A program made the position numbers and the translations under genes. Below are positions 20,626 through 27,501 of a DNA stretch of 28,379 nt, one piece after another. Positions within the stretch are counted from its first letter, which is position 1. Each line of letters begins with the position of its first letter. Source of the stretch: a virus; the IMG/VR virus record IMGVR_UViG_3300007276_000218, positions 1 to 28,379 of that record; one strand, 5' to 3'. The notes beneath the pieces are model-generated. The model was not told where the DNA came from. It ran no database searches and saw only the letters and a list, made by a program, of their open reading frames with translations.

Positions 20626-20645
20626 TATAAAAAATGAGGTACAAA

Positions 20646-21086
20646 ATGCATAGAATGACTTACGAGACTCAAGATATATCCATAAGTAAAATGGACTTCG
20701 AATTGATTTTCGCCTTTGCGGAAAATTTCCTTGGGATAGCTTCAGAGAATATTCACATTAGTTTTATCTTTGAAAAAATGAAGAATAAGGTATGTGGACA
20801 TATGCATCAACTGGATGTTGAAGAATATGAAATATATTTGAATGAAGGCCTTTCTCTGAGTGATATGATGCGAACAATTTTTCACGAAATGGTGCACGTT
20901 AAACAGTATCACTCCGGTAAATATATCGAAGGCCGCCATGCTTCCTTTTGGAAAGGTAAACGATGCGATACTTTCGGTGACGAGTATTTCAATCTGCCAT
21001 GGGAAGTTGAAGCATTTGCTATGGAAACGGAGATGGTAATAAAGTTTATGGATGTACTTAAGGCAGAACTTGAGCATGTGCTATGA
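20646..21086 (+). CDS. Putative zinc metallopeptidase (HExxH, zincin-like)
   Basis: 146 residues. The helix SDMMRTIFHEMVHVKQYHSG carries HEMVH (80-84), the zinc-binding HExxH motif, and a downstream PWEVEAFAMETE (118-129) offers a Glu ligand (about E122). A GRHASFWKGK segment in between recalls SprT-like and other small zincins. I cannot name the family firmly. The start at 20646 is chosen for the GAGG 6 bases upstream; the ATG at 20634 contains that site and is rejected. No signal peptide, so it acts in the cytoplasm. It is the first gene of the block driven by the promoter at 20598 and overlaps the next gene by ATGA. Confidence 0.75.
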   Translation: MHRMTYETQDISISKMDFELIFAFAENFLGIASENIHISFIFEKMKNKVCGHMHQLDVEEYEIYLNEGLSLSDMMRTIFHEMVHVKQYHSGKYIEGRHASFWKGKRCDTFGDEYFNLPWEVEAFAMETEMVIKFMDVLKAELEHVL

Positions 21087-21418
21087 TTAAAGAAATAAAT
21101 CAGATAATTGCCGGTTACAGAAAGGATATTGATTTCGTATTCCTGGATATCCTTGATCGAGATGAAACTTTACTTGTGCCTTGGGTATTGATGGCTGCTT
21201 ATGCCGAATATATCGACAAAAGTCCAATTATTTCAGATAAATTATTTGACAAATTGTGTCAGAAGGTTTATGATAACTATGATGATATTAATCATCCATA
21301 TCTGAGTACATTGGATAGACATATGTTTCTGGTAAAATCATTCCCAGATACTTATCCTGATCGAATTAAACATGGTGTTGAACACTTAAGGAAAATATAT
21401 GCAAACAGTCTTTCGTGA
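21083..21418 (+). CDS. Unknown protein with LigA Ia-like pattern
   Basis: 111 residues. The stretch VPWVLMAAYAEYIDKSPIIS then DKLFDKLCQKVYDNYDDINHPYL resembles the N-terminal Ia domain of NAD-dependent DNA ligases ('YYxxDxPxISDxEYDxLxxEL...HP'), which binds the NMN half of NAD. I recall similar short proteins in marine T4-like phages. The catalytic adenylation domain is absent, so it cannot be a ligase by itself; it may be a NAD/NMN-binding or accessory protein, or the likeness may be chance. Starts in the peptidase stop (ATGA) and overlaps the next gene by 20 bases. Confidence 0.7.
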   Translation: MIKEINQIIAGYRKDIDFVFLDILDRDETLLVPWVLMAAYAEYIDKSPIISDKLFDKLCQKVYDNYDDINHPYLSTLDRHMFLVKSFPDTYPDRIKHGVEHLRKIYANSLS

Positions 21419-21855: not shown

Positions 21856-22590
21856 ATGGCTAAGGTTGATACGGATTATATCCGTAGGGCTGAACGTATT
21901 ACTTCTTTTAATATTGAAACTAAAGACTTTGAAACATTATGCTATAAAAGAGAAATACAAACCCTAATACAAAAACACTTTTTCCCAAATTTTAATTTAA
22001 GAACACTATTAAAGAAAGTTGATAAGGCGAGACTAAATGAGAAAATAGAAATACTCAGGCAACATGATCCAGAACTCTTTACTAAACTGCACCACTATAA
22101 TCTTAAGGGTGTTGGTCCAGGTGAGGTCACTTTATTCTTTTTAGTGAATGACGTTTATCTCGGCGGCGGTTCGAGTTCAGGTGCGGATATAATCTGCAAA
22201 GATCTTTCATACGAAATTAAAGCGGTGCATGTATCTAAAGAAGGTTTGGCCCACAATTTTAAGTTGGGTGGAACCGTATCGTTATCTAATATTATGGTTG
22301 AACTTTATGATTTAGTATCGTACTATAAACTAGATGGTTCAGAAACGGAAATCAAGAAGAGTACAGTAAATATTCTTCGTGATAACTATTATGACGATTT
22401 TAGGCCAATTGAAGAAAAATTTGCAGATGCTGCACATGAATATTTCAGGAATCATGAAGTCATTTTTATCAACAATTCTCTCAGTAAACAGAAAGTAGGA
22501 AGGATAGAGGCTATAAAGCGGGTTCATCGTGATGATATTTTTATCGAGCGATTAACTAATGGAACTGTGAAGCCTATGATTAAATTATGA
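21856..22590 (+). CDS. Putative PD-(D/E)XK-type nuclease
   Basis: 244 residues. The central core has GVGPGEVTLFFLV (85-97, with E90), a Gly/Ser loop GGGSSSGADIIC (103-114, D111) and LSYEIKAV (117-124, E120-x-K122): the order E...D...ExK with strands around it fits the PD-(D/E)XK nuclease fold. Next a GGTVSLSNIM helix start. The ends are basic and helical. T4 has no gene of this kind in this position, and I recall similar uncharacterised proteins in marine phages beside the ligase-like gene. Start has AGGA 5 bases upstream; the stop overlaps the ligase-like ATG. Could be a repair, resolvase-like or host-DNA nuclease. No methyltransferase partner is beside it. Confidence 0.65.
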   Translation: MAKVDTDYIRRAERITSFNIETKDFETLCYKREIQTLIQKHFFPNFNLRTLLKKVDKARLNEKIEILRQHDPELFTKLHHYNLKGVGPGEVTLFFLVNDVYLGGGSSSGADIICKDLSYEIKAVHVSKEGLAHNFKLGGTVSLSNIMVELYDLVSYYKLDGSETEIKKSTVNILRDNYYDDFRPIEEKFADAAHEYFRNHEVIFINNSLSKQKVGRIEAIKRVHRDDIFIERLTNGTVKPMIKL

Positions 22591-23726
22591 CCAGAGTAAA
22601 ACATATATCACACCTCGAAGATCTTCTATTAGAGAATCGTATTGATACAGCAATATCTATGATATATAATCTATGCGGAGATAACAAATTAGAAATGAGC
22701 ACAAAATGGGATGGTGCACCATCTATCTTTGCCGGCACTGATCCGGAGGATAATGCATTCTTTGTTGCATGTAAAAGTATCTTCAACCGTAATCCTAAGA
22801 TATATAAGACCATCAGTTCTATTATGGGAGATAGCATTGATCCTGGATTAAAAGATAAACTCGCGAAATCTCTGGTGCATATGCGAGAAATGAATATTAA
22901 AGGAGTCCTCCAAGGTGATTTCATCTATACTAAAGAAGATCTATTTGAGATGGATATTGCTTCTGAATCGTTTTTGGCTTTTCATCCTAATATACTCGTT
23001 TACGCGGTACCGAAAAAGAGCGAAATTGCTTCACGGATACTTGCCTCCGACCTCGGTGTGGTCTGGCACACTGTATACTCAGGACGCACTCTTGGATCAA
23101 TGCAGAAGGATTTTACTCGAACGCCAGAAAGCTGTTTTACAGAAATTAAAGAAGTCTTCTCGCTAGATCCAACACTCGACTCCCGACAGTATGGATCTAA
23201 TCCAGAGATTATCTATAACGGTCATGAAGATCTTAATATGACTAATTGGTTATCAAATCTTTATAATAGAGAACTATTACAGACTCAAATCAATAGTTAT
23301 ATAAAACAGAATGATCGGTTTAATGATTGTGATGAGTTTGTGAAACATATCAATGATGGTGTACTCGGTAGATATGTTGTCGAGTGGGAGAAGAGAAAAA
23401 CAGATGCTGGTCGGGGCAGGATGAGAGCGAAATATATGGCTTATACTGATTTTTGTTATTCATTCAAGTTTAAAAACCTCATGGAAATGTATATCAAGGT
23501 ATCAGAGTTTAAAGATAAAACCATTGCAGCAATTTCCAATATGTCAGAGTTTAAAGTTTTTCTAAAAACTGAAGAAGGATATGTTAGTACTAATCATGAA
23601 GGCTACGTAATCAACGATGATGAGAACGTGGTGAAATTGGTTAACAGGTTCGACTTCAGTGCTGCTAATTTTAATAAGAAGTATATTAGGGGATGGGAAT
23701 TGAAGAGGTATGACGTTATGTCATAG
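22587..23726 (+). CDS. KxDG nucleotidyltransferase, ligase-like (DUF6267-type)
   Basis: 379 residues. K40-W-D-G43 in STKWDGAPSIFAG is motif I of covalent nucleotidyltransferases (DNA/RNA ligases and capping enzymes), where Lys takes the NMP. Further: VLQGDFIYT (107-115) as motif III, HEGYVI near 337-342 as motif IV (a second EGYV is 10 residues earlier) and VVKLVNRFDF near 348-357 as motif V. The order and spacing are right for a ligase adenylation domain with a large helical insert (about 115-330). I recall the family as DUF6267, common in marine T4-like phages, without proven activity. It could seal nicks in place of T4 gp30. It overlaps the nuclease gene by ATGA. Confidence 0.8.
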   Translation: MTRVKHISHLEDLLLENRIDTAISMIYNLCGDNKLEMSTKWDGAPSIFAGTDPEDNAFFVACKSIFNRNPKIYKTISSIMGDSIDPGLKDKLAKSLVHMREMNIKGVLQGDFIYTKEDLFEMDIASESFLAFHPNILVYAVPKKSEIASRILASDLGVVWHTVYSGRTLGSMQKDFTRTPESCFTEIKEVFSLDPTLDSRQYGSNPEIIYNGHEDLNMTNWLSNLYNRELLQTQINSYIKQNDRFNDCDEFVKHINDGVLGRYVVEWEKRKTDAGRGRMRAKYMAYTDFCYSFKFKNLMEMYIKVSEFKDKTIAAISNMSEFKVFLKTEEGYVSTNHEGYVINDDENVVKLVNRFDFSAANFNKKYIRGWELKRYDVMS

Positions 23727-23799: not shown

Positions 23800-24030
23800 A
23801 TGCACACATACGTTATTTCAATTCAAAATACCTTCGTTACTGAACTTAGCACAATATTATCCAAAATTGGATCTTTTCTTAAAGTTGGATATAATAGGTT
23901 AATTGAGTCTAGACAAATGTCTGCCAATCTTAAGATTGCAGAATATCTTGCTATGACAGAATATAGACAATATAGCGTACTGACTATCTATCATGCGCTT
24001 AACACGAATACATTGGACAGATTGCAATGA
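23800..24030 (+). CDS. Small unknown protein upstream of the DUF1127 gene
   Basis: 76 residues starting with the ATG at 23800, which has AGGA about 9 bases upstream; a longer frame from 23710 would begin inside the preceding gene and is rejected. Reads MHTYVISIQNTFVTELSTIL, then a basic middle (KVGYNRLIESRQ) and helix MSANLKIAEYLAMTEYRQYSV. The layout (short N-terminal arm, basic region, helix with 'LAxxEY') resembles the leader part of alphaproteobacterial DUF1127-type proteins, but without the signature. Its TGA overlaps the DUF1127 ATG. Function unknown. Confidence 0.55.
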   Translation: MHTYVISIQNTFVTELSTILSKIGSFLKVGYNRLIESRQMSANLKIAEYLAMTEYRQYSVLTIYHALNTNTLDRLQ

Positions 24031-24203
24031 TACGAAAATTACTAAATAAGTTCGAGAGATGGAATGATAATAGAGTAGATATCGCAGAACTAAATCGGAT
24101 GAGTGACCGAGAACTGAATGATATAGGCATTCATAGGGGTGACATATACCGAGTGGTAGTACTAGGCCAGGCCAGAAATTCTAAGGGCCAAGAATTAAAC
24201 TAA
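24027..24203 (+). CDS. DUF1127 (YjiS-like) small protein
   Basis: 58 residues, starting in the stop of the previous gene (ATGA). It has a basic N-terminal arm (MIRKLLNKFERWNDNR) and then the DUF1127 signature AELNRMSDRELNDIGIHRGDI (split as AELNRMSDREL, NDIGIHRGDI; residues 20-40), closely matching the family pattern 'L..LsDreLxDIGIxRxDI'. In bacteria these tiny proteins are common in alpha- and gammaproteobacteria; some have been linked to RNA turnover and to phosphate or C1 metabolism. A phage copy may tune host RNA metabolism. It is the best host hint in this window. Followed by a strong terminator. Confidence 0.85.
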   Translation: MIRKLLNKFERWNDNRVDIAELNRMSDRELNDIGIHRGDIYRVVVLGQARNSKGQELN

Positions 24204-24218
24204 TATACAATAATAAAT

Positions 24219-24248
24219 AAAAGGGTGGTCGGTAAGGCCACCCTTTTT
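24219..24248 (+). terminator. Rho-independent terminator after the DUF1127 gene
   Basis: AAAGGGTGG / CCACCCTTT, a 9-bp stem with a G/T-A type loop, followed by TTCA. It ends the transcript of the two small genes. The methyltransferase-like frame could be extended upstream into this stem (GTG at 24225), but that start is rejected. Confidence 0.9.
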
Positions 24249-24266
24249 CATTTTGGAGAGAAATAT

Positions 24267-24938
24267 ATGGACAATATTAAAAGTAAACGAACATGGGGTT
24301 CTCATATTCCTATCAATAAAGCTTTGATGGAGACGTATGATATTACTGGTATATTAGAATTGGGTGCAGGTTATCACAGCACAAAAATGTTCTTTGATTC
24401 TGTGGAACACGTACTATCGGTAGAAACTGATCCTGCTTGGGTTGATGAAATTAAAGAGATCGTACCTGAATCTGAAAATCATAACATCGTGCGGTATGAA
24501 ATTGATCCTTCTATTACCAGAGCTTCTAGAGCCTGGGATGTTGGAGAGGATTTTCTAGAAGAGAGCGTAAAGTTCTTTAAGTCACAACATAAGATTCTAA
24601 AGAAATCCAGTAAAGTAAACCTGCTGTTTGTAGACTGTATTTCATCTCTTCGCAGAGCGGCATTAGACGAGATGTATACGGATTTTGATTTTGTAGTATT
24701 CCATGACTATAATCTTAGAGGTAGGAATAATCACTGGCGCGGAACATTCCGTCCTAATAGTAAATATAAGATGTTCGTTGATGCAACATACCCGCAGCAT
24801 ACTGGTATTATTATGAAAAACAAGTATGCGAAAAAAATCGATGAATTATCCGAGCGGTTTGATGAGAATGTATTTAAATATACTTCTACTAATGATAAAC
24901 CTATGTTAATGAAGGCTGAGGATTATGGTGATATGTGA
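24267..24938 (+). CDS. SAM-dependent methyltransferase-like protein
   Basis: 223 residues from ATG 24267, which has GGAGAG 6 bases upstream. ILELGAGYHSTKMF (29-42) is the Gly-rich SAM loop (motif I), VLSVETD (49-55) ends in the acidic residue that holds the ribose, and VNLLFVDCIS then FDFVVFHDYN are the later strands of the class I fold. The target is unknown. It lacks the DPPY or PC motifs of DNA methylases, so a small-molecule, sugar or protein substrate is more likely. It opens a four-gene block with sulfotransferase and glycosyltransferase genes and overlaps the first sulfotransferase by 14 bases. Confidence 0.7.
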   Translation: MDNIKSKRTWGSHIPINKALMETYDITGILELGAGYHSTKMFFDSVEHVLSVETDPAWVDEIKEIVPESENHNIVRYEIDPSITRASRAWDVGEDFLEESVKFFKSQHKILKKSSKVNLLFVDCISSLRRAALDEMYTDFDFVVFHDYNLRGRNNHWRGTFRPNSKYKMFVDATYPQHTGIIMKNKYAKKIDELSERFDENVFKYTSTNDKPMLMKAEDYGDM

Positions 24939-25596
24939 ATCCGGTAGATTCATTTTCATCAGAATACCAAAAAATGCTAGTACTTCTCTGGCGACCTATT
25001 TCATTAATGCGTATTGTGATGAAGGTGATTCTTATACTCCCATTAATGATGCGGGTATAAGAAGCCAAAATTTTAGTGAAGATCTAATAAAGAAATATAG
25101 ATTAGGATACAGGTTCATACATCTCACTTTGAATGAACTTATTGATAACGAGATCATATCAGAAAAGAGTGTATCGGATAAGAGAGTTATAGGTTGCCTT
25201 CGAGAACCATTGGATCGTCAATTATCTCTATTTTTCTTTAGAAATAGAAGGGGAGATACTAGTGTGTCTACCTTTAGAGATGTATTTAAAGATGGAACAT
25301 GTAGAGGTGATACCAACAATTTTATTCTACAAAGTGACTACCTGAAGATAGGTGATACTAATGTAGGTGAATTTTGGTTATACGAGAACCTAAATGAGCA
25401 TCTGAGTAAATTCAAATCAGATGTGGAACCGAGGAAATCGGTTGATCTTCCCGTATATAAATCTAGTCATAGAAAAAATTTGGATAAACAAAATCTTATT
25501 GACGAATACTACGATCAGGCTACTCTAGATGCAGTGCATAGATATTATGAAAAAGATTTTGAATTATATGAAAGCTTATTGAGAAATGGTAATTGA
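24925..25596 (+). CDS. Sulfotransferase family protein (first copy)
   Basis: 223 residues. FIFIRIPKNASTSLATYF has IPKNASTS (14-21), the 5'-phosphosulfate-binding loop for PAPS, and VIGCLREPLDRQLSLFF (88-104) is the 3'-phosphate site (R93, S101), both in the pattern of the sulfotransferase-2/carbohydrate group. The C-terminal YYEKDFELYESL is typical of the family. No membrane anchor or signal, unlike eukaryotic Golgi enzymes. It likely transfers sulfate from host PAPS to a glycan. GAGG lies before the ATG; it overlaps both neighbours. Confidence 0.85.
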   Translation: MVICESGRFIFIRIPKNASTSLATYFINAYCDEGDSYTPINDAGIRSQNFSEDLIKKYRLGYRFIHLTLNELIDNEIISEKSVSDKRVIGCLREPLDRQLSLFFFRNRRGDTSVSTFRDVFKDGTCRGDTNNFILQSDYLKIGDTNVGEFWLYENLNEHLSKFKSDVEPRKSVDLPVYKSSHRKNLDKQNLIDEYYDQATLDAVHRYYEKDFELYESLLRNGN

Positions 25597-26281
25597 TAGA
25601 GCACTTATTATCCGTAGATTAGAGAATGATATCTCTATGGAATACGCCGAGGGTTGTGCGGCTTCATGTGAGGAACACAATCTCCCATACGAGTTTATAG
25701 ATGCCGTAGAGAATATCCCATGTGAACTTGCTTTTAAATCTGTTGGGGCATTCGCTAGAGATGGATACACTAACACACAGGGTAATTGCTGTTGCCATAG
25801 TTCTCATATCAAATGCTGGAAACGAATTGTAGAACTCAATAAGCCGTGTCTAATTCTTGAACACGATGCTGTAGTAAGAGGTGATGTTAGGAATATCAGC
25901 ATCCCAGATATGGCCGTAGTTACTTTCGGCCATAGAGTCGCTAATAAAGACGACTATACACCTATCGGACCAATAGAGAATCTTCAAGAGATTCCTAGAT
26001 CAGTAGGCGTACACGCGTGTGGATTATCGCCAATAACCGCTAAATGGCTCTTAGATGATGCTACAACGAAAGGAATAAAGATAGGTATAGATAGGTACCT
26101 AATGATGCAACGTAAATCGGGACTGCCCCTATACGTTGCTAATCCCGAACAAGTAGTATGTTGGGCAAGAGTTTCCACATCAAACATGCAACGAACTGCC
26201 CACTTCAAAACTCGAGCAAGACGAGATGTTACTAATTATCCCGATTCGTTTAGTTCTAATTGGCTGAAGGGAATGAAGTGA
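25586..26281 (+). CDS. Glycosyltransferase family 25-like protein
   Basis: 231 residues. The order NCCCHSSHIKCWKRIV (67-82), PCLILEHDAVV (87-97) and GVHACGLSPITAKWLL then IGIDRYLMM matches family 25 (LPS biosynthesis galactosyltransferase type: 'GcalSHi.iw..i', 'LILEDDa', 'IDxyl'). The usual EDD is EHD here, so metal binding may differ. Three consecutive cysteines (68-70) are unusual. Family 25 enzymes add sugars to lipooligosaccharide or glycoproteins. No signal or membrane segment. Sandwiched between two sulfotransferase genes with 11- and 1-base overlaps. Confidence 0.75.
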   Translation: MVIDRALIIRRLENDISMEYAEGCAASCEEHNLPYEFIDAVENIPCELAFKSVGAFARDGYTNTQGNCCCHSSHIKCWKRIVELNKPCLILEHDAVVRGDVRNISIPDMAVVTFGHRVANKDDYTPIGPIENLQEIPRSVGVHACGLSPITAKWLLDDATTKGIKIGIDRYLMMQRKSGLPLYVANPEQVVCWARVSTSNMQRTAHFKTRARRDVTNYPDSFSSNWLKGMK

Positions 26282-26913
26282 TGAATTATTTCATATTCGG
26301 ATTACAGAGATCTGGTACCAATTTCCTTGAAGAGATAATGAAGAAAAACTTTAGGGGAACTAGATACAATAGACAGAAGAAATGCTGGAAACATAGCATT
26401 ACTGTTCCTTGGGATTATGATATAAGTTTACCTACTATTCTATTATATAAGAATCCATATACTTGGATTGAATCTCTTTGTGATAGAAATAAAGTAGATT
26501 GGTTGAGAACCCAAAAGAATTATCCGGCTGATAAGTCAACAAATATTGATATGATTGCCGGTGCTAACAAGTTTGATGTAACGGTTTTAGCTAAAGCGTA
26601 TAGAGACTGGCACAAAAATTGGAAAGAATTTAAGTGCGACTCGAGATATTTTGTGCGATATGAAAGGTTACTTTCCCCAACAGATTGTGATATAATACTC
26701 AAGGAAATATCATCTAAGTATGATGTTAATGTTGTTAAAGCGTGGAATATTCCCAAAATTGGACAAGTAAGCCAATCAAGGGATTATTCTATGGAACGTC
26801 AAGAATACTATATCAAAATGCAACCAACTATTCTTACTGATATCCAGATAGAAGCTATTACGAAGATCATTACACCTGAACTCATTACTGATATAGGTTA
26901 TGATCCTTTATAA
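26281..26913 (+). CDS. Sulfotransferase-like protein (second copy)
   Basis: 210 residues from ATG 26281, whose A is shared with the TGA of the GT25-like gene; AGGG lies about 9 bases upstream. A start 21 bases earlier, inside the previous gene, is less likely. FIFGLQRSGTNFLEEIM (4-20) carries RSGTN, the 5'-phosphosulfate loop of prokaryotic-type sulfotransferases, and ILLYKNPYTWIESL looks like the 3'-phosphate site. It is divergent from the first copy, so the two likely have different acceptors. The end of the gene contains the late promoter of the following genes. Confidence 0.75.
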   Translation: MNYFIFGLQRSGTNFLEEIMKKNFRGTRYNRQKKCWKHSITVPWDYDISLPTILLYKNPYTWIESLCDRNKVDWLRTQKNYPADKSTNIDMIAGANKFDVTVLAKAYRDWHKNWKEFKCDSRYFVRYERLLSPTDCDIILKEISSKYDVNVVKAWNIPKIGQVSQSRDYSMERQEYYIKMQPTILTDIQIEAITKIITPELITDIGYDPL

Positions 26914-26955: not shown

Positions 26956-27501
26956 ATGAAAAAGAATACGGTAGTTATATCGTGGGGTCGAATGAATCCA
27001 CCCACGAAAGGTCATGAAAAGGTAATTGAAGCCGTAAAGTCTACTGCAGCAGAACATAAAGCTGATGCGCGGATATACTTATCACATTCTCATGATAAAA
27101 AGAGAAATCCTCTACAGTATGTAGATAAAATTGTTATTGCCGAGAGCGCATTTGGTTCTATTATCCAGAGATCTGATGCCCGAACAATAACTAAAGTCCT
27201 TCAAGAATTAGAAATAGAATATAGTAATCTCATTATGATAGTGGGATCGGATCGAGTGGAAGATTTTACCACTCTCCTAAATAACTATAACGGTAAAGAT
27301 TATACATTCGACTCAATTCAGGTACTATCCGCGGGTCTTAGAGATCCAGATAAAGATGATATAAGTGGTATGAGTGCTACTAAGGTGAGACAGGCGGCCA
27401 TCGACCTCGATATAAAAACATTCGAGCAAGGAATACCCGCTATACTTAAATCGCAGAGCAAAGAAATAATAGATAAGATAAGAGGCAAGAATGGAAACTG
27501 A
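26956..27501 (+). CDS. Nucleotidyltransferase (NMNAT / cytidylyltransferase fold)
   Basis: 181 residues. VVISWGRMNPPTKGHEKVIE (6-25) has the 'GRxNPPTxGH' loop with a KGH in place of HxGH, and DISGMSATKVRQAA (near 131-144) is the ISGTxxR-like motif of NMN and related adenylyltransferases. MIVGSDRVEDF in between is the substrate loop. I recall this gene before a Lys/Arg-rich structural protein in many marine T4-like phages. Its late promoter and position suggest a late role, perhaps NAD salvage or a virion-linked nucleotidyl transfer; the substrate is not shown. Start has GAGGAAAG. It overlaps the next gene by 11 bases. Confidence 0.82.
   Translation: MKKNTVVISWGRMNPPTKGHEKVIEAVKSTAAEHKADARIYLSHSHDKKRNPLQYVDKIVIAESAFGSIIQRSDARTITKVLQELEIEYSNLIMIVGSDRVEDFTTLLNNYNGKDYTFDSIQVLSAGLRDPDKDDISGMSATKVRQAAIDLDIKTFEQGIPAILKSQSKEIIDKIRGKNGN

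Follow-up and report, generated by a model that had tools for sequence, protein, structure and literature searches.

In a marine T4-like phage, two genes that overlap encode a likely restriction-type nuclease and a likely ligase-superfamily nucleotidyltransferase. The overall reading that we prefer, to which we give about an even chance, is that they represent a nuclease and ligase-type module that is mostly capsid cargo in related phages and acts inside the infected cell in the phage studied here. The original prediction described the pair as a nuclease-like gene coupled to a ligase-like gene; membership of the second protein in family DUF6267, an interchangeable nuclease slot, a CTP_transf_like third member, and a capsid-targeting-like tag in relatives all go beyond it. 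The folds are already known, whereas the arrangement of the module is undescribed as far as the literature that we found shows.

Gene layout

The window (the whole stretch of DNA analyzed, a 28.4-kb IMG/VR virus record) contains recognizable genes for DNA polymerase, UvsX, and a DnaB-type helicase a short way upstream of the pair. P0001, P0002, their motifs, and the transferase gene described below are all on the plus strand. P0001, the nuclease-like protein (244 aa; 21856 to 22590), and P0002, the ligase-like protein (379 aa; 22587 to 23726), are encoded exactly where originally predicted, and the stop of the first overlaps the start of the second by 4 bases (ATGA; 22587 to 22590). A CTP_transf_like nucleotidyltransferase gene, the third conserved member of the module (26956 to 27501; PF01467, E = 5e-5; phrog_3041, E = 3e-58), is separated from P0002 by ∼3.2 kb of other genes. 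These (24027 to 26913) encode a DUF1127 protein, which hints at a proteobacterial host, and then sulfotransferase-like and glycosyltransferase-25-like proteins. Between the helicase gene and the pair lies a gene for an SprT/M78-like putative metallopeptidase (20634 to 21086), with homologs at the same place in two other loci (L004 and L005). A small ORF (21083 to 21418) has a weak match to Nlig-Ia, a domain found in NAD+-dependent DNA ligases, at an E value of 0.0014 that misses the curated cutoff; it also matches phrog_19233.

P0001, a likely PD-(D/E)XK endonuclease

Homologs of P0001 occur in six Vibrio phage records and >80 IMG/VR loci. In an alignment of 44 sequences, the majority of them 33 to 50% identical to P0001, four residues are invariant: E90 (22123 to 22125), the candidate active-site Glu; D111 (22186 to 22188), a candidate metal-binding Asp; and E120 and K122 of an ExK motif (E120-I-K122; 22213 to 22221). 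The E…D…ExK order read from the sequence in the original prediction is thus conserved, including E120 and K122, whose conservation had been proposed as a check. No convincing family match was found in Pfam, PHROGs, NCBIfam, or PADLOC, and PDB sequence profiles gave no meaningful match; we took matches to SIR2_2 (E = 0.05) and PglX (E = 0.01) as chance. The predicted model (pLDDT 92.9) had no significant match with Foldseek alone, and its best structural alignments were almost all to type II restriction enzymes, with weak Z scores of at most 4.4. From its invariant residues and model, P0001 is likely a divergent PD-(D/E)XK endonuclease of the type-II-restriction-like kind. One locus (L045) carries tandem P0001-type genes (126 to 926 and 931 to 1728); the second copy is strongly diverged, with 24% identity to P0001, but retains the acidic residues and the lysine that are invariant in the alignment.

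P0002, a DUF6267 protein with ligase-superfamily motifs

P0002 matches Pfam family DUF6267 (PF19782) with an E value of 2.2e-70 and a score of 238.4 bits against a cutoff of 27, over profile positions 2 to 374 of 376; it also matches phrog_455 (E = 1.2e-70; columns 22 to 344). DUF6267 is present in 456 phage records at an E value of 1e-3, for the most part cyanophages, and in 35 loci of cellular genome collections, nearly all of them marine MAG contigs that resemble binned phage. In a tree, the branch leading to the window copy is very long, and a single-sequence scan with P0002 returned zero loci. Our literature search found no paper that names DUF6267.

Among 61 aligned sequences (the window plus IMG/VR loci; ∼31 to 36% identity to P0002), K40, W41, D42, G43, P45, Q109-G-D111, E338-G339, and K350 are invariant. 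These include motifs I (K40-W-D-G43; 22704 to 22715), III (Asp111; 22917 to 22919), IV (E338-G339; 23598 to 23603), and V (K350; 23634 to 23636) of covalent nucleotidyltransferases, as originally predicted; K40, the residue singled out for checking, is among them. Motif conservation at such identities, in P0002 as in P0001, excludes chance. The pattern departs from that usual for ligases at two points: in motif III, Glu is replaced by Asp (Q-G-D), and motif V contains a single Lys (K350-L-V) where KxK is usual.

In the AlphaFold2 model of P0002 (pLDDT 88.4), K40, D111, E338, and K350 lie in or beside strands in the nucleotidyltransferase order, and residues ∼200 to 319, between motifs III and IV, are mostly helical. 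Foldseek alone gave no significant match and PDB sequence profiles no meaningful one, but in a second structural alignment all 50 of 50 rows were RNA or DNA ligases. The best was Naegleria RNA ligase (Z = 8.5; rmsd, 3.9; 182 aligned residues), followed by T4 Rnl2 (Z = 7.5), T4 Rnl1 (Z = 7.1), and DNA ligases (Z = 6.3 to 6.9). Since Z scores below 8 can reflect a common arrangement, it is the motifs and the uniform list of ligases that carry the argument, and since gaps of less than about 1 unit count as ties, either RNA or DNA may be the substrate as far as structure goes. Structure prediction, proposed originally for both proteins, bore out the ligase half, with ligases exclusively, and for the nuclease half returned almost entirely type II restriction enzymes, at weak scores. 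We conclude that P0002 is likely a covalent nucleotidyltransferase of the ligase superfamily, as predicted from its motifs and model. A T4 gp30-type identity was rejected: a Pfam scan of P0002 gave DUF6267 only, with PF01068 unmatched.

Linkage of the module genes

The coupling of the two genes is conserved. In the loci that we fetched, a DUF6267 gene lies downstream of 87 of 88 P0001-type ORFs, with a spacing within 10 bases in 73 of 85 measured pairs, and it is followed by a CTP_transf_like gene in 92 of the 99 loci with room for one. The order DUF6267 then transferase also occurs in phages DLP6, C48C1, P-HM2, DSL-LC02, S-RSM4 (where the copy is annotated merely as hypothetical), and P-RSM4. 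The window transferase matches columns 419 to 591 of phrog_455, the same family whose columns 22 to 344 match P0002; fused forms therefore seem to be part of phrog_455. The sole P0001-type gene unlinked to DUF6267 is that of Vibrio phage Va1, in whose genome DUF6267 was not found. Directly upstream of the Va1 P0001 homolog is a gene for a fusion of another K-T-D-G protein with a CTP_transf_like domain (locus L002, 6466 to 7938).

An exchangeable slot with nuclease-like families

DUF6267 loci that lack a P0001 homolog have other families upstream. Within ∼4.5 kb of DUF6267, 106 of 122 nonredundant loci have a P0001-type gene or another candidate nuclease family; 3 have a HAD-type gene only, and 13 have neither. 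The slot families were defined from the slot position itself, and most are called nuclease-like on a short motif alone: three slot alignments have invariant D..SLK, PKSD..SHK, or E..D..ExK columns. In one family, all six of six members match a PADLOC type II restriction enzyme profile (REase_II; best E = 7e-14), and one member of another family also matches a profile of this kind (E = 1e-9). PDB sequence profiles gave no meaningful match for slot alignments A5 to A7. Profile comparison of P0001 with the other slot families yielded no significant common nuclease domain, the alignments being confined to the tag-bearing N-terminus or to a short stretch with D..ExK, and homology of these families to P0001 is therefore not established. 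Two slot families have ∼100 N-terminal residues in common (hhalign probability, 98%; E = 2e-13) and differ in their conserved motifs further downstream, an architecture reminiscent of polymorphic toxins. Tagged genes for HAD-type phosphatase-like proteins (FDIDETLF) were also seen in or near the DUF6267 locus (L019, 5608 to 6210; L086, 2420 to 3022; L027, 6330 to 6944).

Capsid-targeting-like tags in relatives

T4 internal proteins are packed into the head via a 10-residue N-terminal capsid-targeting sequence, and gp21 cleaves after L/I-x-E (PMC9026906). We searched N-termini with a strict pattern modeled on this sequence, using other ORFs of ≥150 aa for comparison. Among relatives, it was found in 107 of 131 DUF6267 proteins, 92 of 129 transferases, and 27 of 59 nucleases, compared to 68 of 891 other ORFs; among shuffles its frequency was below 1%. 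A looser pattern picked 92% of DUF6267 proteins, 81% of transferases, and 78% of nucleases versus 21% of other ORFs, with shuffles near 10%. As controls, the strict pattern picked 5 of 252 ORFs in T4, two of which start MKTYQEFIAE, and 6 of 161 in C48C1, four of them consecutive and starting at DUF6267. A gp21-type protease was present in 14 of 15 records. Tag presence was not significantly correlated between neighboring module genes. In C48C1, a tagged, strongly basic 123-aa protein encoded between DUF6267 and the transferase (L009, 7212 to 7580) may be a further internal protein of the head; ORFs resembling it are present in several IMG/VR loci.

In the literature, we found a single review on capsid targeting together with cyanophages. 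Published virion data that we found cover the transferase; for a tagged DUF6267 protein or a slot nuclease, none turned up. The transferase (T4-GC190) was detected by mass spectrometry in S-SM1 virions (PMC3037559), and a cytidylyltransferase was found in S-CREM2 virions, which according to its authors could be carry-over (PMC10665884). In S-CREM2, three of the four ORFs with the tag pattern encode virion proteins (Fisher P = 0.047), and the untagged DUF6267 protein is absent from the published virion list. Two of the ORFs that combine tag pattern and virion protein in this phage encode an SAM hydrolase (ORF6; L198, 3840 to 5081) and the small ORF13 product (L198, 10313 to 10546), whose gene lies beside one annotated as a CRISPR-Cas9 nuclease.

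None of the ORFs in the window, P0001 and P0002 included, has the tag pattern, and cyanophage DUF6267 proteins lack it too. Given this and its long branch, we make no claim of packaging for the window copy.

Proposed function and alternatives

Taken together, the computed motifs, ligase-like fold, linkage, tags, and slot exchange are consistent with a module, found widely among marine T4-like phages, that would combine an interchangeable restriction-like nuclease, a conserved DUF6267 protein, and a CTP_transf_like nucleotidyltransferase. P0001 would be the divergent endonuclease, and P0002, its partner, a covalent nucleotidyltransferase with K40 probably adenylated. In most noncyanophage relatives, DUF6267 and the transferase, and often the nuclease, appear to begin with a T4-type targeting sequence ending in L/I-x-E; given these tags, they are probably packed into the head, trimmed by gp21, and delivered with the DNA. 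We infer such delivery for the nuclease and DUF6267, as we do the enzymatic activities and the preference for DNA over RNA. The division of labor may be that the nuclease cuts host or competitor DNA and the ligase-like enzyme closes breaks in nucleic acid belonging to the phage. P0001 and P0002 of the window lack a tag and so probably act inside the infected cell. A more specific version, which we hold tentatively, is a polymorphic head-cargo locus in which a rapidly exchanged nuclease of the restriction-enzyme type, in some cases attached to a common tagged N-terminal domain, is packed in the capsid and injected with the genome together with the DUF6267 ligase and the nucleotidyltransferase to cut and reseal against host or rival DNA; the window would then hold an untagged version.

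The location of P0001 and P0002, shortly after the genes for polymerase, UvsX, and helicase, and the untagged state of the window and cyanophage copies, would also fit an intracellular DNA repair or replication pair, in which the nuclease trims, DUF6267 seals nicks and stands in for gp30 where that is missing, and the tag seen in relatives is fortuitous or serves some other purpose. Five complete cyanophages and C48C1, in which PF01068 (gp30-type DNA ligase) was not found, agree with this explanation, which we regard as possible though doubtful. However, PF01068 was found in 6 of 15 records. Five of these (complete phage DLP6 and four IMG/VR records) are among the 14 that bear DUF6267; the sixth is Va1, in which DUF6267 was not found. 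Such co-occurrence weakens the original suggestion of simple gp30 replacement and means that DUF6267 is not simply a gp30 substitute, although it could take on that role in genomes that lack gp30. An exchangeable nuclease slot and head-type tags are likewise unexpected for housekeeping repair enzymes. An NAD+-dependent ligase was also considered as a candidate and rejected, PF01653 being present in 0 of 15 records.

That RNA ligases head the structural list, and that HAD-type phosphatase genes occupy some slots, would suit an RNA-repair module, in which DUF6267, as an RNA ligase, rejoins tRNA or other RNA species that host defense nucleases have cut, while the nuclease and transferase process RNA ends. 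We think this unlikely: DNA ligases follow so closely that the gaps, of about one unit, are ties, and the slot nucleases look like DNA restriction enzymes. Less probable still is that DUF6267 is a nucleotidyltransferase other than a ligase, acting, for example, in protein nucleotidylation or, with its CTP_transf_like partner, on a nucleotide-linked small molecule. Its atypical motifs III and V, its strong linkage to and apparent fusion with the CTP_transf_like protein, and the different K-T-D-G fusion protein preceding the Va1 P0001 homolog all point that way; against it, the other core motifs of the ligase superfamily are all invariant and the partner slot is nuclease-like.

Assignment to the ligase superfamily opens DUF6267, a domain-of-unknown-function family, to testing and is relevant to how DNA might be sealed in cyanophages that lack gp30. 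If tagged relatives are indeed packaged, ocean phages introduce both restriction-type nucleases and ligase-type enzymes as infection starts, and the T4 internal-protein idea would widen from small proteins to an exchangeable enzyme set.

Comparison with known systems

P0002 is a clear member of DUF6267 (PHROG 455; cyanophage T4-GC 71) and shares with it the position ahead of a CTP_transf_like gene, but is divergent and is paired with a P0001-type nuclease. It has the same I-III-IV-V motif order as the RNA ligases (Naegleria Rnl, T4 Rnl2, and T4 Rnl1), its best structural matches, and differs from them in its motif III Asp, one motif V Lys, helical region, and lack of a sequence-level match. 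With T4 gp30 it has superfamily-level motifs in common, but it has no PF01068 match, and some genomes carry both kinds of protein. P0001 resembles type II restriction endonucleases (PvuII, HincII, HinP1I, EcoRV, and DpnI) in its E..D..ExK order and structural alignments; in contrast to them, it has low Z scores, lacks a sequence match, and has no identified methyltransferase partner adjacent to it. Finally, the N-termini of relatives match the tag pattern and L/I-x-E protease site of T4 internal proteins IPI, IPII, and IPIII, but their cargo is enzyme-like (nuclease, ligase-like, and nucleotidyltransferase) rather than small proteins, and the window copies lack the tag.
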